Virus record (IMG/VR): IMGVR_UViG_3300025112_000031
Location: 1-45,352 of that record
Length of the DNA stretch: 45,352 nucleotides
Direction: 5' to 3' (one strand)
Source of the DNA: a virus
The notes under the pieces were generated by a model that was not told the DNA's origin, searched no databases, and saw only the letters and a list, made by a program, of their open reading frames with translations. The translations under genes were made by a program, and so were the position numbers. This document shows, piece by piece, positions 2,888 through 26,391 of this stretch. Positions within the stretch are counted from its first letter, which is position 1. Each line of letters begins with the position of its first letter.

Positions 2888-3743
2888 GGGGCACCTCCCT
2901 TTGTTCCTGGGCCTTCAACTTGGCGTCCAGTTGAGCCGAGTCGGCCCCGCGCAAACGCTGAAACATGTTCTTGAGCGCCCCGCCGTCCACCGTGGGTTTG
3001 TCTTCTTGGGGCGGTCCCTGACTGGAGCCCGAAGGCTGCAGTGGGTTGGTGGGCGCCTGAAACTGCTGGATGGGCAACTCGCCCGACGTTTGCATCTGGG
3101 CGTAGGTCGAGCCGATAAAGTGCTGCACATCGTTGGGGCGGTTGGCCAGATCGGGGTCAGAGGCAAACTGTTGCTGCACCTTCTGGTAAATCTTGGTCGC
3201 CCCCTCCTGGTCAATTTGGCCCGAGCGGATCATATTCTGCAGCTGGTTGGGCACGGTCGAGGCCGAGGTAAAGCGGTCCTGAACCTGCTGGTTGCCCTGT
3301 TGGACGGCCGTACTCACGTCCTGTTGCGTGGCCACGCCTTTTTTAGCCAGGGCCTGGTCCACGCCCATCTCGAATATCTGGCGGGCATTTTGCCCGTTTT
3401 CATCCCGTCCGAACGCATCGTTGAGCAGCCGTTCGGTGGGATCTTCGTCCGGGGCCTGGCCGTTGGAGGCCTGGCCGTTGACGGGGGTCGGGTTGGTTTC
3501 CAATTGGGCCTTGAGTTGCTGGTTCTCGCCTTCCAGCCGTTGAATATGGGGCTGGGCTTGTCGGGCCCAATCCGCCAACTTCTGCTTGTCCTGCTCGGCT
3601 TGACCCAACTTATCGTTGACCTGCTTGAAGCGATCGTACGGAATAGGCCCTTCTTCTACACCGGCAGACTCCGCGCCGGGAGCGGCGGCCTGTTCCTCGG
3701 GGGCCGGGGTCCCCTCTTCTACGCCCGGGGTTACTTCGGACAT
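2880..3743 (-). CDS. Capsid scaffolding protein
   Basis: 287 residues with the usual scaffold layout: an acidic, Pro/Ala/Glu-rich N-terminus, the frequently seen IPYDRFKQVNDKL element, a predicted coiled coil at roughly residues 40-85 (EQDKQKLADWARQAQPHIQR and following), a helical middle, and a short C-terminal positively charged region (KAQEQREVPRG) that could contact the coat protein. It lies between portal and capsid genes, the canonical scaffold position. No protease is recognised nearby. Confidence 0.8.
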   Translation of the reverse strand: MSEVTPGVEEGTPAPEEQAAAPGAESAGVEEGPIPYDRFKQVNDKLGQAEQDKQKLADWARQAQPHIQRLEGENQQLKAQLETNPTPVNGQASNGQAPDEDPTERLLNDAFGRDENGQNARQIFEMGVDQALAKKGVATQQDVSTAVQQGNQQVQDRFTSASTVPNQLQNMIRSGQIDQEGATKIYQKVQQQFASDPDLANRPNDVQHFIGSTYAQMQTSGELPIQQFQAPTNPLQPSGSSQGPPQEDKPTVDGGALKNMFQRLRGADSAQLDAKLKAQEQREVPRG

Positions 3744-3759
3744 GTTCTTATGCTTTCGG

Positions 3760-4098
3760 TTACGACCCGTCTAATACTGCTTGGCCGGGTCTTTCTGGGT
3801 GTAGCCCTTCTTCGTCCCCTTGGCTTTGGCTTTGGGGTGGCCGTGGGACTTGGAGGCCTTGGTCGGGTTCTTGCCCGACGAGCTGTGTCCGGACTTCTTC
3901 ATGGCGTTGATCCTCGAGTTGGCGGACGATGCGTCCGAGTTCAGACTGGGCTCGTTGGGCCTGTTTGACCGTGAGAGCATCCAGCAGGATAAGGGGGCTT
4001 TGGCCGTCGGGAAAGGAAAACAGCACGTACGGCCCCTTGTTGAGCGTGTTGCGGGCAATGGTGCGCCGCACATCGGGTTGTAGATTAGCCAGCGGCAA
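3760..4098 (-). CDS. Hypothetical protein with out-of-frame overlap
   Basis: 112 residues. The first ~66 residues (start MPLANLQPDVRRTIARN) look like a folded alpha/beta protein. The remainder is Gln/Pro/Gly-rich and is co-encoded with a 43-residue basic protein in another frame (3771-3902), so either the tail of this ORF or the basic protein could be incidental. It overlaps the preceding gene by 14 bp. Located between portal and scaffold. No recognised domain. Confidence 0.5.
   Translation of the reverse strand: MPLANLQPDVRRTIARNTLNKGPYVLFSFPDGQSPLILLDALTVKQAQRAQSELGRIVRQLEDQRHEEVRTQLVGQEPDQGLQVPRPPQSQSQGDEEGLHPERPGQAVLDGS
3771..3902 (-). CDS. Small Lys-rich protein nested in another frame
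   Basis: A 43-residue ORF starting MKKSGHSSSGKNPTKASK and ending QKDPAKQY, over a quarter lysine. GAGGATC lies about 9 bases before the ATG. It lies entirely inside the 3' half of the 112-residue ORF in a different frame. Its composition matches other small basic proteins of this late operon, which favours it being real. Alternatively the two frames could be joined by a frameshift to give the upstream protein a basic tail. Confidence 0.4.
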   Translation of the reverse strand: MKKSGHSSSGKNPTKASKSHGHPKAKAKGTKKGYTQKDPAKQY

Positions 4099-14194: not shown

Positions 14195-14914
14195 ATGCAA
14201 ATCAAGCATAAAGACACAGATTCCGTACTGTACGAATCAGACCACACCACCATCAAGCAAACACTCGAGCAGGCTTGCCTCAAAGGGGCCGACCTGGGAG
14301 GGGCTTACCTGGGAGGGGCTTACCTGGGAGGGGCTAACCTGGGAGGGGCTAACCTGGGAGGGGCTAGCCTGGAAGGGGCTAGCCTGGAAGGGGCTAGCCT
14401 GGGAGGGGCCGACCTGAGAGGGGCTAGCCTGGAAGGGGCCGACCTGAGAGGGGCTAGCCTGGAAGGGGCTAACCTGGAAGGGGCTAACCTGGGAGGGGCC
14501 GACCTGGGAGGGGCCGACCTGAAAGGGGCCGACCTGGGAGGGGCTTACCTGGGAGGGGCTTACCTGGGAGGGGCCGACCTGGGAGGGGCTAGCCTGGGAG
14601 GGGCCGACCTGAAAGGGGCTAGCCTGGGAGGGGCCGACCTGAAAGGGGCTTACCTGGGAGGGGCCGACCTGAAAGGGGCTTACCTGAAAGGGGTAAAAGT
14701 ATCTTGGTCGTCCCACGCCTTGCTCAGTGAGATGCTTTGGCAGGCCGCCGCCACCCCCCCGCAAGAGATGCTGGCCGCCTATGTGGGCCGGAAAATTACC
14801 TGGTGCTGGGCCGACTGGCAGGCCTTCCAGCACCCGGAAAAACAATGGGCGTGGGACTACGTACGCACCCTGGCAAAGGACGACGAGACCGCACCCCGGG
14901 AGCTGAAACTATGA
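14195..14914 (+). CDS. Pentapeptide-repeat protein 1
   Basis: 239 residues. A short N-terminal cap ([16 protein letters not shown]) is shared with the second pentapeptide protein at 21594. Residues 27-166 hold 28 tandem A(D/N/S/Y)LxG units, expected to form a quadrilateral right-handed beta-helix of about seven coils. The C-terminal 70 residues ([16 protein letters not shown] ... WCWADW) form a separate helical domain. Such proteins can mimic DNA (Qnr/MfpA inhibit gyrase), but function varies, so none is assigned. The 15-bp DNA units are almost identical, implying recent expansion. Confidence 0.9.
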
Positions 14915-16880: not shown

Positions 16881-17735
16881 TCAGCCTCGGGAGCGGGCCG
16901 GTGGGTGGAGCTGTAGGTGGTACGTGCCGCGCTTTGGGGCCTCTTGACGAGGGGCGGCCGTTGTTCCAAAGGCTAATGTTTCTTGTTGCAATCGTTGGAC
17001 AATAGCCGGTATATGATCTTCGTCCAGTTCAATACCAATCGCCTTACGGCCCAAGTCTTTGGCTGCCCGTAAGGTGGGGCCATGTCCGGCAAAGGGGTCC
17101 AGTACAATGTCGTCGGGAAACGAGTGCAGTTGAATAAAGTGGGACATAAGGGTTTCGGGCTTGGCCGTGGGGTGCTGGTGGGCCGCCGGTATGATTTTGC
17201 GGAAGTCCACCACATTGGATACGTCCTTGCTGGTGTTGTTCCACCGCAGGGCCGCCCCCGCCTTTTTGGCAATCAGCATAAATTCGTAACTGCGCCGGTA
17301 GCGCAACCCCATCCCTAAGCCCGGCTTGGCCCATACCACCGCCTGCAGAAACTCCATACAGGCGTCCATCGCTAGCGTCATTTCGGCAAAAATAGGCTGG
17401 GGGCCACCACCACCACAACAACAACAACAACAACAACCCCCACGCTTTAATACCCGCTTGAAAGCGGGAAACCACTCTTTCATGCCCTGTTCAAAGTCGG
17501 CCCTGCTGTCCCCCTGTATGGGCCGTGGAGCGCCGTTGGTAGTGCCCTGGAATATGGCCTCCCGCCGGGAGGCCATATCTCTTAGTGTATTGTAGTTGAG
17601 ACCAAAAGGGGGATCGGTCAGCACCAGGTCTATGCTTTCGGCTTGCAGTTGGGGTAATATCTCCATACAATCCCCTTGCACCAGGGCCACCGATTCGTCC
17701 ACATAAGCATATTCAATGTCAGGTGGGGGCCACAT
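16881..17735 (-). CDS. DNA methyltransferase 1 (N6-A/N4-C family) with poly-Cys run
   Basis: 284 residues from ATG 17735. Catalytic motif DPPF at 41-44, LKRGG at 96-100, AdoMet-binding LDPFAGHGPTLRAAKDLG at 212-229, and HPTAKP at 188-193, the order of the beta-class amino-methyltransferases (pfam N6_N4_Mtase). Residues 101-107 are seven consecutive cysteines followed by four glycines, encoded by a TGT microsatellite. No cognate endonuclease is adjacent, so it is probably an orphan anti-restriction or regulatory methylase. Confidence 0.88.
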   Translation of the reverse strand: MWPPPDIEYAYVDESVALVQGDCMEILPQLQAESIDLVLTDPPFGLNYNTLRDMASRREAIFQGTTNGAPRPIQGDSRADFEQGMKEWFPAFKRVLKRGGCCCCCCCGGGGPQPIFAEMTLAMDACMEFLQAVVWAKPGLGMGLRYRRSYEFMLIAKKAGAALRWNNTSKDVSNVVDFRKIIPAAHQHPTAKPETLMSHFIQLHSFPDDIVLDPFAGHGPTLRAAKDLGRKAIGIELDEDHIPAIVQRLQQETLAFGTTAAPRQEAPKRGTYHLQLHPPARSRG

Positions 17736-17755
17736 GCTTACTCCCAATAAAAATA

Positions 17756-17827
17756 CCCCTGAATATGGGGTGTCTACCGAGTCCTGGCCGCCGCGCAAGG
17801 CTCAGACTCGCACCCCATATTCAAGGG
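17756..17827. repeat. 17-bp inverted repeat upstream of methyltransferase 1
   Basis: CCCCTGAATATGGGGTG (17756-17772) and CACCCCATATTCAAGGG (17811-17827) are complementary with one mismatch around a 38-base loop. The region begins 20 bp upstream of the methyltransferase start on the minus strand and could be an operator or leader structure. Confidence 0.6.
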
Positions 17828-18329: not shown

Positions 18330-18617
18330 TCAATGCTCCTTCCTGACTAGGTGTGCCATGTCGTCCAGGTGGTCCCCTATGGTGGGCAAGTTTCGCAGCC
18401 AGGCCTTTATGTGGTTCAGGGCACAGTGGGTGCACAAATCAATAGCCACCTGCTTGTTTGCCCCGGTGGTGCTCAGGTGCAAGGCGGGCACTTGTGTTTG
18501 TGTGGCCGTAAAATGCAACCACAAGCCGTCCTGGGGCTCCAGGCTATCCGCCTCCTGCACTATCAACGGCTCTACCACCTCTTCGCACTCGTCGCATAAG
18601 GTGCGGGTTTCTTTCAT
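18330..18617 (-). CDS. Small zinc-binding protein
   Basis: 95 residues, ATGA overlap with methyltransferase 2. CDEC near the start and CTHC near residue 63 form a likely four-Cys zinc site. The middle (GLWLHFTATQTQVPALHLS) is beta-rich. Function unknown. Confidence 0.6.
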   Translation of the reverse strand: MKETRTLCDECEEVVEPLIVQEADSLEPQDGLWLHFTATQTQVPALHLSTTGANKQVAIDLCTHCALNHIKAWLRNLPTIGDHLDDMAHLVRKEH

Positions 18618-19723
18618 GCTACCACCTCGCTTTCTATTCCGTGAAACAACGGACAATCGTCCTGCAGGCGCTTGCGCGCCAGGTGGCAATACTCGGGGTT
18701 CAACTCAATCCCGATCCCGTGCCGATTGAGCCGATCCGCTACCAGCAGGGTAGTTCCGGCCCCGGCGAACGGATCCAGCACCGTGCCCCCTTCAGGGCAG
18801 CCGGCCAGGACACACGGCTCGATCAGTTTGGGTGGGAAGGTGGCAAAATGGGCGGATTTCAGGGGTTGTGTGGCCACGGTCCAGACGTTGCGGCGGGTGC
18901 GGGTTTCGGCCTGGGGTTGCCCGGTAAAATAGCGGGAGTTAAATCCGGCATGGCGGCGGCCATGCCCATCTTGCTTATGTTCACGCGCCACCTGCGTCCG
19001 GTCAGCCCGCAGGTGGCGCGTGTCGCCTGCAGTTAGGGCCGGTTCTGCAATGGCGTCTGCGTCGTAGTAATACTTTTCCTGCTGGGCCAGCAGGAAGATG
19101 TGCTCGTGGGCGCTGGTGGGCCGGTCCGTGACGGACTCGGGCATGGGGTTGGGCTTGGCCCAGATAATGTCCGATCTGAGGTACCACCCGTCCGCCTGGA
19201 GCGCCAGGGCCACCCGGGCCGGGATCATCAGCAGGTCTTTGGGTTTGTAGCCGGTGGGCACTGTGGCCCCGTGGTTGTTGCCCACATTGGTGTGCTTGGT
19301 GTCTGTCACCTGGTAACCCCGATTGGCTGCGTACGAATCCCCCAAATTTAAAAAAACAGTAGCGTCGTCCCTGAGCACCCGCCTGACTTCCCTGAATACC
19401 CCCACCAACCGCTCGATATACTGCTCGGGCATATCTTCTAAGCCGATCTGCTGGTCCTGCCTTGTGGCCCCACAGTGACAATTCCGCTGGACCGTACTCT
19501 CGTCTACCGTTTGCGTTGAGCCTTCGAGGCTTCCCTTGAGCCGTGAGGTCCTGGGCCTCACCTTGGGCTTGTGGTCGCAGACAGGGTCGCCCCCTTCCCA
19601 TTGGGCCGTGCCGTAATCTCTGAGGCCGTAGTAGGGCGGACTGGTGACGCAGCAGTGGACCGACTGGTCCCCCATGAGCTGCAGTTGCTCCACGCAATCG
19701 CCCTGTTTAATGTCCCAGCTCAT
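18614..19723 (-). CDS. DNA methyltransferase 2 (probably N4-cytosine)
   Basis: 369 residues from ATG 19723. Catalytic TSPPYYGLRDYG (SPPY at 28-31, the form favoured by N4-cytosine enzymes), a Cys/His insert (VCDHK ... NCHCGATRQDQQIGLE) likely binding zinc, FREVRRVLRDDATVFLNLGD, and AdoMet site LDPFAGAGTTLLVADRLNRHG with DPFAGAG at 317-323. Modification target unknown. An intrinsic-terminator-like hairpin lies 16 bases upstream of its start, implying attenuation control. Confidence 0.9.
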   Translation of the reverse strand: MSWDIKQGDCVEQLQLMGDQSVHCCVTSPPYYGLRDYGTAQWEGGDPVCDHKPKVRPRTSRLKGSLEGSTQTVDESTVQRNCHCGATRQDQQIGLEDMPEQYIERLVGVFREVRRVLRDDATVFLNLGDSYAANRGYQVTDTKHTNVGNNHGATVPTGYKPKDLLMIPARVALALQADGWYLRSDIIWAKPNPMPESVTDRPTSAHEHIFLLAQQEKYYYDADAIAEPALTAGDTRHLRADRTQVAREHKQDGHGRRHAGFNSRYFTGQPQAETRTRRNVWTVATQPLKSAHFATFPPKLIEPCVLAGCPEGGTVLDPFAGAGTTLLVADRLNRHGIGIELNPEYCHLARKRLQDDCPLFHGIESEVVA

Positions 19724-19739
19724 AGACACCCCCTACCAT

Positions 19740-21358: not shown

Positions 21359-21592
21359 ATGCCCCAAAAGACAATCACCTACGGCCCCAGTGCCGCCTAC
21401 CCCTTTACCGATAGCACCGTAGAAAGTGGCTTGACCAAGCGCGAATACTTCGCCGCCTGCGCCCTAGGCTTGATGGCGGTAGATTCCGCGCCTGATACCT
21501 CATCACGAGCCCATCTTGTGGCCCAAGATGCTGTAATGATAGCCGACGCCCTGATTGCCGCGCTCAACGCCGACACCGCCGAGGGGGCCTAG
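21359..21592 (+). CDS. Conserved-looking phage early protein
   Basis: 77 residues. GLTKREYFAACALGLMAVDS followed by AVMIADALIAALN matches a widespread group of short phage proteins of unknown function. GTGGAGG lies just before the ATG. The in-frame upstream extension belongs to a shadow of the HNH gene. Confidence 0.7.
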   Translation: MPQKTITYGPSAAYPFTDSTVESGLTKREYFAACALGLMAVDSAPDTSSRAHLVAQDAVMIADALIAALNADTAEGA

Positions 21593-21593
21593 T

Positions 21594-22394
21594 ATGCAAA
21601 TCAAACACCGACGCAGCGATATTGTCCTGTATGAATCCGATAAGGACACATTCAAAGAGACGGTAATTGACGCAATTAGGAGCAGAGCGAATCTGCGCGG
21701 AGCGGATCTGTGCGGAGCGGATCTGTACAAAGCGGATCTGTACGGAGCGAATCTGTGCGGAGCGGATCTGTACAAAGCGGATCTGCGCGAAGCGGATCTG
21801 TACAAAGCGGATCTGTACGGAGCGAATCTGTGCGAAGTGAATCTGCGCGGAGCGGATCTGCGCGAAGTGAATCTGCGCGGAGCGAATCTGTGCGAAGCGG
21901 ATCTGTACAAAGCGGATCTGCGCGGAGCGGATCTGCGCGGAGCGAATCTGCGCGGAGCGGATCTGTACGAAGCGGATCTGTACGAAGCGGATCTGCGCGG
22001 GGCGCTTGGTATAAATAAACACCATACCACGCCCCTGTGCCTCCTGCTCTACCAACCCGGCCCCATCCGTGCCTGCAAATTGGTCAAAGCAAACGGGGAA
22101 GGTCCCTACAATGGGGGTCTTGTCTACAAGGTGGGCCAGGCCTACGAGGTGGACAATGCTAGTGACGACGAAAATGAGTCGTGCGGAGCCGGCATTAACC
22201 TGGCCACCATAGACTGGTGTCTCAAAGAATGGAGAGAAGGCTACCGCATCTTGTGGGCCGAACACACCGCCGAAGATATCGCCTGTATACCCATCGGCCC
22301 GGACGGCAAGTACCGGGTCCACCGCTGCACTATCGTAGGCGAAGCCGACCTGGCTGAATTTGGCCTGGTGGAACCCGAGAAAGAGGGGGCCTAG
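21594..22394 (+). CDS. Pentapeptide-repeat protein 2 with a C-terminal DUF7666-like domain
   Basis: 266 residues. N-terminal cap MQIKHRRSDIVLYESDKD parallels pentapeptide protein 1. Residues 32-136 carry 21 A(D/N)Lxx pentapeptides, here with unusual x positions (CG, YK, RE, YE). The remaining ~130 residues (VYKVGQAYEVDNASDDENES, CGAGINLATIDW, ACIPIGPDGKYRVHRCTIV) resemble the DUF7666 domain that often follows phage pentapeptide repeats. The 15-bp DNA unit (GCGGATCTG core) differs from that of protein 1, so the arrays expanded separately. Confidence 0.85.
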   Translation: MQIKHRRSDIVLYESDKDTFKETVIDAIRSRANLRGADLCGADLYKADLYGANLCGADLYKADLREADLYKADLYGANLCEVNLRGADLREVNLRGANLCEADLYKADLRGADLRGANLRGADLYEADLYEADLRGALGINKHHTTPLCLLLYQPGPIRACKLVKANGEGPYNGGLVYKVGQAYEVDNASDDENESCGAGINLATIDWCLKEWREGYRILWAEHTAEDIACIPIGPDGKYRVHRCTIVGEADLAEFGLVEPEKEGA

Positions 22395-22602: not shown

Positions 22603-22979
22603 TAGAGGACAACCTTAAAAAGCACGACTTCCCCCAGGTGCCCACTATAGCAGAGAGCGCCAACGAATACCTGGTGGGCACCTGGCGCTTTAAAAAGGCC
22701 AACCCCGTGGGCCGGTGCTTTGCCGCCTTCATCGCCCTGCACGAAGCGGCCACAGGCCTTATTGACGGATTGGACGACGAGCGGCATATCATAGGCCGGA
22801 CGCACTCCACAGTAATTGCCTTGCGGCAGGTGCTCCAGGGCACCGACGCGCCCTCAGCCAAGCCCACTTTAATCAACCTTATATCCGATCCAGGGTTGCA
22901 ACAGTTGGACGTCGGCGAATTGAAACAATTGTTCATTGCCGTCCAGTGGCTACTGGACCACCACACGGAGGAGGAGTAA
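22599..22979 (+). CDS. Early protein, helical
   Basis: 126 residues from GTG in a GTGA overlap. Helical throughout (CFAAFIALHEAATGLIDGLD, LKQLFIAVQWLLDHH). No recognised family. Precedes the SSB-tailed protein and may work with it. Confidence 0.55.
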   Translation: MIEDNLKKHDFPQVPTIAESANEYLVGTWRFKKANPVGRCFAAFIALHEAATGLIDGLDDERHIIGRTHSTVIALRQVLQGTDAPSAKPTLINLISDPGLQQLDVGELKQLFIAVQWLLDHHTEEE

Positions 22980-22980
22980 C

Positions 22981-23889
22981 ATGGCACTCAAAATAGCAGA
23001 CAACGTAACCTATATCATAGAGTTCAAGCGCGATAACGTCACCAAGTCCCTATCCACCCATGAAAGCGGGGGCTTCTATTACAGTTTCGACGTTAAGGCT
23101 TGTGTGAGCGGCCAGGACAACTGGCAGGAGGGCCGCTGGCACGTGCCCTTTTCCATTGTTCGGCAGATCAAGGACCACCCCTTCCCCGGCCGCAACGGCC
23201 GCCTGGAGTTGACCCGCCTGGATTACGAGAGCATCAGCATTACCCAGGCATGGGTCTCTGAATACCAGCAATACGGCTTGACCATGAAGCGGTTTAAGGA
23301 TGGAGAAACTCAGCCGGTAAAAGTGGCGTTCAACGACGACTTGGACCCCAACTTTGACGCGGGAGCACAGGCCACCGAAATGCACGTCAACAGCGCCGAC
23401 ATCCCCCCTGAAATCCTTTCGGCCCCCGACCAGCCTGTGCAGGCCGTCAAACCCACCACAGACGACACAGACGCCCAGTGGGCTCATATGGGGCACATGC
23501 TGGCTTCGGCGTGGACCATGGCAGCGCAGGCGGCCACCAATCTGGAATTGAAGGAAGTGCCCGAAGGGTGGACGGCCACCCTGTTCATAGAAGCGCAGAA
23601 GCGGGGCCTGCCCCCCCTGTCCCACCTGGATCCCACGGTGGACGAGCCTAACTTCAGTGACAGCGCAGAGCAGGACTACACCGAAGAAGAAAAGGCCGAC
23701 ACCTACGACCCCGACCGCGCGGAGCGCCAGTTGGCCCACGATGAAGCGCAAAGAGAATTGCCACTAGGACCGCCCGATCCGCGCGACCAGGGGCCGGTGC
23801 CTATGTCGGAAGGCGAGCGGGCAGCGTATGCCCAGCCGAATCCGAACGAGCCGCCGCCGTTGGACGACTCAGACGACCTCCCTTTTTAG
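22981..23889 (+). CDS. Putative ssDNA-binding/recombination protein with SSB-type tail
   Basis: 302 residues, start MALKIADNVTYIIEFKRD after GGAGGAG. The first ~115 residues look beta-rich. The middle and C-terminus are acidic, Pro-rich and disordered, ending DDSDDLPF, very like the SSB acidic tip (DDDIPF) that recruits replication and repair proteins. No OB fold is proven. With no polymerase in the window, a tip that captures host replication proteins would make sense; this is inference. Confidence 0.55.
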   Translation: MALKIADNVTYIIEFKRDNVTKSLSTHESGGFYYSFDVKACVSGQDNWQEGRWHVPFSIVRQIKDHPFPGRNGRLELTRLDYESISITQAWVSEYQQYGLTMKRFKDGETQPVKVAFNDDLDPNFDAGAQATEMHVNSADIPPEILSAPDQPVQAVKPTTDDTDAQWAHMGHMLASAWTMAAQAATNLELKEVPEGWTATLFIEAQKRGLPPLSHLDPTVDEPNFSDSAEQDYTEEEKADTYDPDRAERQLAHDEAQRELPLGPPDPRDQGPVPMSEGERAAYAQPNPNEPPPLDDSDDLPF

Positions 23890-23900
23890 CCGAGGCCCCC

Positions 23901-23999
23901 ATGAGAGCCTTCACCGTCCCCAGCAACCACCAACCCGGCACGGCCTACACCGTGCGCCTGTATATCGGCCAGGAAACCGAGTTCGGGGCCAACGAGTGA
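23901..23999 (+). pseudogene. Truncated duplicate of the SWIM-protein 5' end
   Basis: 32 residues (MRAFTVPSNHQPGTAYTVRL ...) that match the first 32 residues of the protein at 24862 at 26 positions, then stop where the other continues with Trp (TGA versus TGG). It lacks the zinc motif. The two copies bracket the PAPS-reductase-like gene, so this is probably a remnant of an insertion by recombination, although it could be expressed as a peptide. Confidence 0.75.
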
Positions 24000-24001
24000 G
24001 T

Positions 24002-24865
24002 ATGATCTACGATCTGAACGTATTGAGCTTAGGAGCGGGTACTCAATCGTCCTTTATCTACCTGGCCGCTTTGCACGGTATGTGGGACGCGCCCTTAGAA
24101 GCGGCCATTTTTGCCGACACGGGGTGGGAACCACCGGCCGTTTATGAGTACCTGGATTATTTGGAGGGGTTGGGGGGCGACCAAATCCCCATTTACCGCA
24201 CCCAGTATGGCAATTTGCGTCAAGATATGTGGGATGCGGTAGGTGCGCCGGCCCGATCCATTGGGGGCCTTTCTAATCCACCCCTGTATATCAAGCAGTC
24301 GGTGGAAGAAAGCGAAGCGGCCCGTATACCGCCCTCGTCGGGCGGTATGCTGTGGCGCAATTGCACCCGGGACTACAAGATCAATCCCATACGCAAGCAG
24401 GTGCGCACTCTGCTGGGGTATACGACCCGCCAGAAGGTTAAAAAGAAAGTGCGGCAATGGATCGGTATATCAATTGACGAAGCCACGCGCATGAAAGACA
24501 ATGGGGTGGGCTTTATCGACAATTATTATCCCCTCGTGGAACAGAATCTGTCTCGCACCGATTGCTTGGCCTGGATAGAACGCAGGGGCTACCGCCTACC
24601 CGCCAAATCGGCTTGTGTGGGGTGCCCTTATCACTCCAATGATTTCTGGGCTGACATGAAGCGCACGCGGCCCGACGAATGGGCCGACGCCATCCAATTC
24701 GACGCCCACTTGCGCACCGGCAAATTGCCCGGCACAACCGGAGACGCTTATGTCCACCGGGCCATGCTGCCCTTAGAAGAGGCGGTAGAGCGCACCCACA
24801 ACCCCGATCAAGGGGATTTGTTCAATGGTTTTGAACAAGAGTGCGAAGGGATGTGTGGTGTATGA
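24002..24865 (+). CDS. PAPS-reductase-like PP-loop protein
   Basis: 287 residues. The PP-loop is near the N-terminus (LNVLSLGAGTQSS, residues 5-17), followed by FADTGWEPPAVYEYL, typical of the adenine-nucleotide alpha-hydrolase/PAPS-reductase superfamily. WRNCTRDYKINPIR (C121), ACVGCPYHSNDFW (C205, C208) and a C-terminal ECEGMCGV (C281, C285) could bind a metal or Fe-S cluster. Phage members have unknown roles; DndC-like sulfur transfer to DNA is one option. Inserted between two copies of the SWIM gene start. Confidence 0.8.
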   Translation: MIYDLNVLSLGAGTQSSFIYLAALHGMWDAPLEAAIFADTGWEPPAVYEYLDYLEGLGGDQIPIYRTQYGNLRQDMWDAVGAPARSIGGLSNPPLYIKQSVEESEAARIPPSSGGMLWRNCTRDYKINPIRKQVRTLLGYTTRQKVKKKVRQWIGISIDEATRMKDNGVGFIDNYYPLVEQNLSRTDCLAWIERRGYRLPAKSACVGCPYHSNDFWADMKRTRPDEWADAIQFDAHLRTGKLPGTTGDAYVHRAMLPLEEAVERTHNPDQGDLFNGFEQECEGMCGV

Positions 24866-25122
24866 GAGCCTTCACCGTCCCCAGCAGTCGCCAGCCCGAC
24901 ACGGCCTATACCGTGCGCCTATACACCGGGATTGAGACTGAGTTTGGTCAGAACGAGTGGGAATGCACCTGTCCGCACTACCGCTATCGCCACACGCACT
25001 GCCGCCATATTGACTACGCCCGTTCGGCCTTTGCCGACGGGTGCTCGGGCGGGCCGGGCACGGACCCGTTCCCGCTATCGGCGCCTCACGCCAACGCCGC
25101 CCAATTACGGGGAAAGGGATAA
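24862..25122 (+). CDS. SWIM zinc-finger protein
   Basis: 86 residues, ATGA overlap with the PP-loop gene. ECTCPHYRYRHTHCRHID at 34-51 fits the SWIM pattern CxC...CxH. SWIM domains bind DNA or proteins. The C-terminal 35 residues are low complexity. The intact copy of the duplicated gene. Confidence 0.75.
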   Translation: MRAFTVPSSRQPDTAYTVRLYTGIETEFGQNEWECTCPHYRYRHTHCRHIDYARSAFADGCSGGPGTDPFPLSAPHANAAQLRGKG

Positions 25123-25129
25123 ACGGAGT

Positions 25130-25282
25130 ATGCGATTTCGGGATTACCGGGTGCGCCTGATCTTGTGGATCTCGGCCCACCTACGAGGGGACAATGCAAT
25201 CACCCGGGCCGCTACACAGGGTCCCGGCGTAGCTCGAATCGTTCGAGTGGACGCCTGGATGCGGCCCGGGTGGTTCTACTAA
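25130..25282 (+). CDS. Small early protein
   Basis: 50 residues (MRFRDYRVRLILWISAHLRG ...), basic with an amphipathic N-terminus, after CGGAG. No recognised family. Confidence 0.5.
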   Translation: MRFRDYRVRLILWISAHLRGDNAITRAATQGPGVARIVRVDAWMRPGWFY

Positions 25283-25291
25283 GGACGCCCT

Positions 25292-26026
25292 ATGAGAACC
25301 GTATGCTATCAGAGAGAAATTAGAGAAAAGTTGGAACAAAGCGACCCTCGCTCAATTGTTCCCCTAGATCAATGTCACGTGGACATCATAAGCGATAGAG
25401 CCGCTAAAGAGATTATATATAAATATGAGTGGTTGGGCACCATGGGGCGCACGGTGCATACATGTGGACTTATAGGCCCGACAGGCCAGGTAATAGGAGC
25501 TTTATGCTTTGGTTGGCCCGGTAGTCCTGAAAGTCGAGATATTTGCGGTAAGGATTTTCGAGATCGGGCTATTTGTCTTGAGCGGGGGGCCTGTGCTCAT
25601 TATACCCATCCCCATGCACCCAGTTTTCTGGTTTCTCGTGGGACACGTTTAATCCACCGCCTGCATGGATACGATATTTTCTATGCATACTCAGACGAAG
25701 AGGCGGGTGAAATAGGCACTATTTATCAGGCATGTAATTGGTTGTATATAGGCCAAGGCGTGGGTCGCAGCAAGGGTAGACTTAGAGAAGATTTCAAAAC
25801 CCCAGAGGGGCCTATTGTATCAAGCCGAACACTCAGGCACAGAGGCTTAACAAAAACAGAGGCAATACAAAAAGGGTGGAAAGTAATCCTGCGTCACCCT
25901 AAACACAAATATGTCTATTTTGAAGGCAGTAAGTCTAACAGGCGGACACTGAAGTTAAAACTACGCTACCCTGCTTTGCCATACCCCAACCGACAAGAGC
26001 GCATAGAGCGAGTGGCCGCCCCATGA
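25292..26026 (+). CDS. Mom-like DNA-modification protein
   Basis: 244 residues resembling the phage Mu Mom family, GNAT-fold enzymes that modify adenines and protect phage DNA from restriction. Visible: AAKEIIYKYEWLGTMGRTVH at the N-terminus, GQVIGALCFGWPG, ICLERGACA, then the characteristic YSDEEAGEIGTIYQACNW at 133-150 (Mom proteins have SYADP..GH.GTIYQATNW), and HRGLTKTEAIQKGW. The gene is richer in A/T-ending and AGA/ATA codons than its neighbours, suggesting later acquisition. It overlaps the DUF1064-type nuclease by 4 bp. Confidence 0.75.
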   Translation: MRTVCYQREIREKLEQSDPRSIVPLDQCHVDIISDRAAKEIIYKYEWLGTMGRTVHTCGLIGPTGQVIGALCFGWPGSPESRDICGKDFRDRAICLERGACAHYTHPHAPSFLVSRGTRLIHRLHGYDIFYAYSDEEAGEIGTIYQACNWLYIGQGVGRSKGRLREDFKTPEGPIVSSRTLRHRGLTKTEAIQKGWKVILRHPKHKYVYFEGSKSNRRTLKLKLRYPALPYPNRQERIERVAAP

Positions 26027-26391
26027 ACAAATACAGCGCCCGCCTCACCACCGTCAAAGGGCGGCAATTCCATAGCAAACGGGAAGCGTTGCGCTTTCTG
26101 GAGCTGGACGCTATGCAGCAGGCCGGCGAGATCTCTGATCTGCGTTGCCAGGTGAAGATCCCGCTGGAGGTGGGCGGCACCGTGATCGGCCACTACATAG
26201 CCGACTTTGTATACTGGGACCATACCTCTGAGTTTCCCAGCGCCTTGCTGGTAGCCCCTACGCGACCTACCGTGCACCGCCCGGCACCAGGCGCCACGGT
26301 GGAGGACAGCAAGGGGTACAGGACGGCCTTCTATCGCTGGAAGAAGAAGCACTTTGAGGCACAGTATGGCACAACAATCCTGGAGACCTGA
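26023..26391 (+). CDS. DUF1064-type PD-(D/E)XK nuclease
   Basis: 122 residues. KYSARLTTVKGRQFHSKREA with LELDAMQQAGEISDLRCQVK, then YIADFVYWD and VEDSKGYRT, follow the DUF1064 pattern (catalytic E, D and ExK-like VEDxKG). Members are thought to be resolvase-like or recombination nucleases. There is an insertion (SALLVAPTRPTVHRPAPGAT) before the last motif. Confidence 0.8.
   Translation: MNKYSARLTTVKGRQFHSKREALRFLELDAMQQAGEISDLRCQVKIPLEVGGTVIGHYIADFVYWDHTSEFPSALLVAPTRPTVHRPAPGATVEDSKGYRTAFYRWKKKHFEAQYGTTILET

Follow-up and report, generated by a model that had tools for sequence, protein, structure and literature searches.

The window, that is, the whole stretch of viral DNA that was analysed, comes from an uncultured phage and spans 45,352 b, listed in IMG/VR as a virus record. 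Four tightly packed ORFs, all of them on the + strand, encode a PP-loop protein of 287 aa (24002-24865), a SWIM zinc-finger protein of 86 aa (24862-25122), a Mom-family DNA modification enzyme of 244 aa (25292-26026) and a DUF1064 / Holliday-junction-resolvase-like nuclease of 122 aa (26023-26391). The ATG of the SWIM gene overlaps the PP-loop stop codon, and the nuclease gene overlaps the stop codon of the Mom gene. The 5' part of the SWIM gene occurs a second time as a truncated copy (23901-24004, + strand), with 32 codons followed by a stop; this copy is a direct repeat of 24862-24965. The four-gene cluster had been reported in a preliminary description of this DNA, and the Pfam and PHROG family matches of the ORFs confirm it. 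The same description mentioned two methyltransferases elsewhere in the window, which are indeed found as separate loci on the - strand, at 16881-17798 and 18614-19729, at least 4.3 kb from the cluster; both of them match the DNA methyltransferase family phrog_67. The Mom and PP-loop genes sit in an early DNA-metabolism gene cluster.

Some other features of the window are worth recording. The methyltransferase at 16881-17798 contains seven consecutive cysteines and, after them, glycines (GGCCCCCCCGGGGP). The protein encoded directly upstream of the cluster (22936-23889, + strand) gave no family match in Pfam, PHROG, PADLOC or NCBIfam, and ends in DDSDDLPF, which resembles the acidic tail of single-stranded-DNA-binding proteins. 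Pentapeptide-like repeats (A[DN]LxGA...) make up two proteins, encoded at 14195-14914 and 21555-22394, whose N-termini resemble each other (MQIKH...VLYESD). Another IMG/VR contig (L099), at least 99.9% identical over 16 kb, bridges positions 1 and 45352 of the window via 777 b (L099 11595-12371) that are absent from it. As judged from this joining of the ends, the genome is about 46.1 kb long and circular or circularly permuted.

The protein encoded at 25292-26026 matches the Pfam Mom family PF25680 with 65.8 bits (cut-off 27.1) over positions 3-201 of the 202 of the profile (199 of 202), and phrog_1384 ("Mom-like DNA modification protein") with E=3.5e-29. Relatives have been found in 73 viral contigs of IMG/VR, the nearest being around 45% identical, and residues D135, G142, Y145 and Q146 are invariant across 36 viral Mom loci and the Mom protein of phage Mu. 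On these sequence grounds the assignment to the Mom family, already proposed in the preliminary description, is secure. Mom enzymes have been described as members of the GNAT superfamily that modify adenine at N6 and protect phage DNA (PMC7824862). The adjoining nuclease matches DUF1064 (PF06356; 37.3 bits, cut-off 24.7) and the Holliday junction resolvases of phrog_190 (E=5.7e-20). The SWIM protein matches PF04434 with 21.2 bits (cut-off 19.6) and contains the CxCxnCxH pattern, visible as CTCPHYRYRHTHCRH; a structure model of it, predicted from the single sequence, has a pLDDT of 39 and is of no use. The preliminary description placed both proteins in a modification island, but neither shows a link to modification; the nuclease is included by its position in the cluster only.

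The PP-loop protein matches phrog_424 over its whole length (E=3e-41) and, because a frame of 287 codons matches a family at this level, the ORF is taken as a real gene and not as a product of chance. This is a very common phage family, labelled "PAPS reductase", which includes the NinC protein of phage lambda; at least 586 relatives were confirmed in IMG/VR starting from two short patterns. In the search for related loci, the single PP-loop sequence gave none, and an alignment of seven rows used as query retrieved relatives. Ten columns are invariant in 40 diverse members including NinC (S9, G13, S16, C121, K126, G155, E160, R163, C205 and C208), and the C-terminal cysteines C281 and C285 are also invariant among 24 closer viral members. 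An AlphaFold2 model, whose alignment was built from IMG/VR rows only, is confident (pLDDT 87.8, pTM 0.87). It shows the PP-loop enzyme fold, and CysH/APS reductase, TilS, NcsA, TtuA and LarE match it, all within about 2.5 Z units; since CysH, TtuA, NcsA and LarE fit alike, fold comparison does not settle the function of the protein.

In a PADLOC search the window protein matched SspD, which is the PP-loop enzyme of the DNA phosphorothioation system SspABCD, with 51.6 bits (residues 119-240) and did not match the DndC profile. SspD was matched by all 40 family members tested, whereas DndC was matched by only one of the 40 and BrxP by two; E. coli CysH, used as a control, reached only 14.3 bits with SspD and preferred BrxP. 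For comparison, six proteins (L204-L209) were chosen from 229 sampled genomes by their match to SspD, which reached 307-456 bits. The CTxxxK, DExxR (ExxR) and CxxC blocks and a C-terminal cysteine pair are common to the window protein, NinC, the PptA protein discussed below and these six proteins. In E. coli CysH, on the other hand, neither the first cysteine nor the CxxC nor the C-terminal pair is present, and ECGLH is found instead; this catalytic motif (ECGxH) is absent from the window protein, whose match to the Pfam PAPS_reduct family (17.0 bits) falls under the cut-off of 22.5. Because SspD was matched by 40 of 40 members and barely by E. coli CysH, and because ECGxH is missing, the label "PAPS reductase" of phrog_424 is doubted, and as far as sequences can tell it is probably wrong.

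SspD acts together with SspA, SspB and SspC. None of these partners was found in the window: there is no match to PF00266 (the SspA desulfurase) and none to PF13182 (DUF4007, SspB), the latter search being without a positive control, as the control genomes gave no match either. As no SspA desulfurase lies alongside, the window system is not filed as an Ssp system. When the PP-loop family was used in a profile search of the PDB, the entry 21fy, named "PptA", ranked first (E=1.3e-7). Its PptA chain is QGH73774.1 of Vibrio phage vB_VhaP_VH-5, itself a member of phrog_424, and a PDB search with E. coli IscS revealed that this cysteine desulfurase is contained in the same entry. A literature search found no paper describing PptA in phage. 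The SspD match in all 40 members, the shared cysteine block and the fact that 21fy holds both PptA and IscS favour the earlier suggestion that sulfur for a modification could be supplied by the PP-loop enzyme. The accompanying idea that this modification is "not yet described" is doubtful, phosphorothioation being a described chemistry; the Mom and PP-loop genes of the window belong to already known kinds.

The preliminary description also regarded the genes as one modification island, and proposed that their co-occurrence in other phages be checked. This check was carried out and co-occurrence turned out to be rare. A phrog_424 match of any kind was found in five records among the 73 IMG/VR Mom records and one phage, and only one of the 73 (L059) has a PP-loop gene of the window type, as fragments of a disrupted gene. 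The other four matches are weak. Three of them are other PP-loop types, as G006 encodes two SGGKDS-type proteins and G044 and G054 encode long proteins with a methyltransferase-like part; the fourth lies in G042. Conversely, 80 PP-loop records yielded two Mom matches, one adjacent (L123) and the other distant and weak. Most of these records are fragments, and true co-occurrence rates may be higher. A Mom scan of the genome collection gave two loci, both without PP-loop and SWIM genes, and no relative of the window SWIM protein was found in any fetched PP-loop or Mom locus outside the window. Comparison of 60 of 78 Mom records with all 50 PP-loop records of annotated phages revealed no accession common to both, although these listings are small and chance overlap would be rare anyway. 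Psychrobacter phage Y8A has been annotated with both a Mom and a PP-loop protein (PMC10434257). Since co-occurrence is rare in relatives, each of the two genes appears to occur for the most part independently of the other, which makes a joint pathway unlikely.

How, then, did these genes become neighbours? Two copies of the initial 104 b of the SWIM gene exist, one directly before the PP-loop start (23901-24004) and one in the intact gene (24862-24965), so that the PP-loop gene is flanked by diverged copies, 79% identical, which differ mainly at third codon positions. With a divergence of 21%, located mostly at these positions, a recent target-site duplication is rejected as the source of the repeats. 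The sequences suggest instead that the PP-loop gene arrived by recombination between SWIM alleles that had diverged. In L059, a Mom gene lies between the first 48 codons and approximately the last 90 codons of a PP-loop gene; this Mom cassette of 749 b is 99.9% identical between L059 (7992-8740) and L036 (7992-8740), both flanks being unrelated. Either this Mom gene behaves like a mobile cassette or one of the two contigs, perhaps L059, is chimeric. In L123, a Mom-like gene of about 470 b (3511-3981; phrog_1384) starts just past the PP-loop stop codon and is missing in the related contigs L121 and L122. Of 259 related PP-loop pairs, which are mutually non-independent, 64% lose DNA similarity no more than 10 b from the stop codon. 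The SWIM repeats, the interruption in L059, the Mom-like gene in L123 and the end of similarity at the PP-loop stop codon give the locus the look of a hot spot for recombination. A slot prone to recombination, in which anti-restriction genes accumulate, accounts for the neighbourhood better than a dedicated pathway.

Among the neighbours of PP-loop genes, DNA polymerase, helicases and C5-cytosine methyltransferases are frequent, as assigned by eye from sequence. After dereplication, 7 of 39 PP-loop loci have a C5 methyltransferase no further than 2 kb away, compared with 0 of 36 loci for Mom, a modest and post hoc difference (p=0.012). In Gordonia phage PotPie and an Oscillospiraceae phage (L090, L097), the PP-loop gene is located within the packaging block, between the genes for the small and large terminase subunits or between terminase and portal.

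Taken together, these data point to two independent enzymes that may mask the phage DNA, each by a chemistry unrelated to the other, and we give this reading about an even chance of being right. The PP-loop protein would be an orphan thiotransferase of the SspD/PptA type that binds ATP and activates its acceptor by adenylation. The host IscS would pass a persulfide to the cysteines of the protein (C205-xx-C208, C121 and the C281/C285 pair), and sulfur would then replace oxygen in the acceptor activated in this way; the phosphate backbone of the phage DNA is the most likely acceptor (phosphorothioation). The use of a host desulfurase fits with the fact that no cysteine desulfurase is encoded in the window, and phage DNA is considered the most likely acceptor because this is the case with SspD and because of the frequent DNA polymerase, helicase and C5-cytosine methyltransferase neighbours. 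Mom would separately alter adenine at N6 by a Mu-like chemistry. Both modifications would blunt host restriction, and the two genes would adjoin through a recombination-prone site and not through a shared pathway. For the window PP-loop protein, the use of IscS, the DNA acceptor and the anti-restriction role are inferred by homology. The low identities to PptA (18%) and SspD (24%), the unsupported deep order of their tree, the SspA, SspB and SspC partners that were not found in the window and a fold that suits tRNA thiolases just as well all weigh against this reading.

The nature of the acceptor is the point at which another explanation has to be weighed. The PP-loop protein could thiolate RNA (tRNA) or a free nucleotide via the host IscS, tuning translation or countering defence, and Mom would then be the only enzyme modifying DNA. 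IscS also supplies tRNA thiolation, which favours this possibility, and the tRNA thiolases TtuA and NcsA match the PP-loop fold (Z 10.7-11.8) as well as CysH does. Nevertheless, the sequence signature is that of SspD, the neighbours are DNA-metabolism and DNA-methylation genes and the window contains no tRNA gene; RNA thiolation is therefore held to be rather unlikely. The database names, with which genes of this kind are annotated in many phages, and the resemblance of the fold to CysH would lead instead to a PAPS reductase, an auxiliary gene of sulfate assimilation boosting host sulfur metabolism. This is improbable given the missing ECGxH motif, the PAPS_reduct score under the cut-off, the additional cysteine block of the SspD type and the fact that the family member PptA shares one PDB entry with IscS.

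A further reading, which takes up the preliminary description, would have the PP-loop, SWIM and Mom proteins cooperate in a single pathway leading to a new composite modification. It agrees with the tight packing of the genes on the same strand, with the one independent adjacency of PP-loop and Mom-like genes (L123) and with the annotation of phage Y8A (PMC10434257). The two families are nearly always apart, however, no accession is common to both phage listings among the matches listed, and no SWIM relative was found in the PP-loop and Mom loci fetched outside the window, which makes a single pathway very improbable. The preferred reading of two separate enzymes can also be extended. One genome would combine a backbone phosphorothioated in an IscS-dependent way by a single phage PP-loop enzyme with Mom-modified adenines, the PP-loop and Mom genes would be interchangeable cassettes of one anti-restriction slot, and NinC and the common phage "PAPS reductases" would be sulfur-modification enzymes. 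This extended proposal is tentative and, as a whole, doubtful.

Many phages carry "PAPS reductase" genes, which are often taken as a sign of sulfate assimilation. The wider interest of the locus lies in the re-reading, from sequence comparison, of these genes and of lambda NinC as SspD/PptA-like and probably IscS-dependent enzymes. On the present evidence, the phrog_424 proteins including NinC share the build of the enzyme that inserts sulfur in DNA phosphorothioation, and a long-standing annotation question thus becomes testable in lambda ninC (located at 882-1754 of L194), which is non-essential in the laboratory and of unknown function (PMC10695390). If the reading holds for the window phage, backbone and base modification would be stacked on one genome, with sulfur transfer dependent on the host IscS and phage DNA as the most likely acceptor.

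Several known systems can be compared with the locus. SspD, from the SspABCD phosphorothioation system, has the same K-, R- and CxxC blocks and the same C-terminal cysteine pair as the window protein, with 24% identity; the window protein differs in having SLGAGTQS in place of the classical SGGxDS loop. PptA of phage VH-5 belongs to the same phrog_424 family and shares the cysteine signature, including the ECxxxC tail, but it is a distant member, 18% identical and on a separate branch of a tree whose deep order is without support. Lambda NinC, also of phrog_424, carries the SspD-like cysteine signature, has all ten invariant columns and adjoins recombination genes; in contrast to the window protein, to which it is 21% identical, it keeps the SGG loop. 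Finally, the Mom proteins of the window and of phage Mu are only 21% identical overall, whereas both give a full-length match to the Pfam Mom family and share D135-G139-G142-Y145-Q146-N149.
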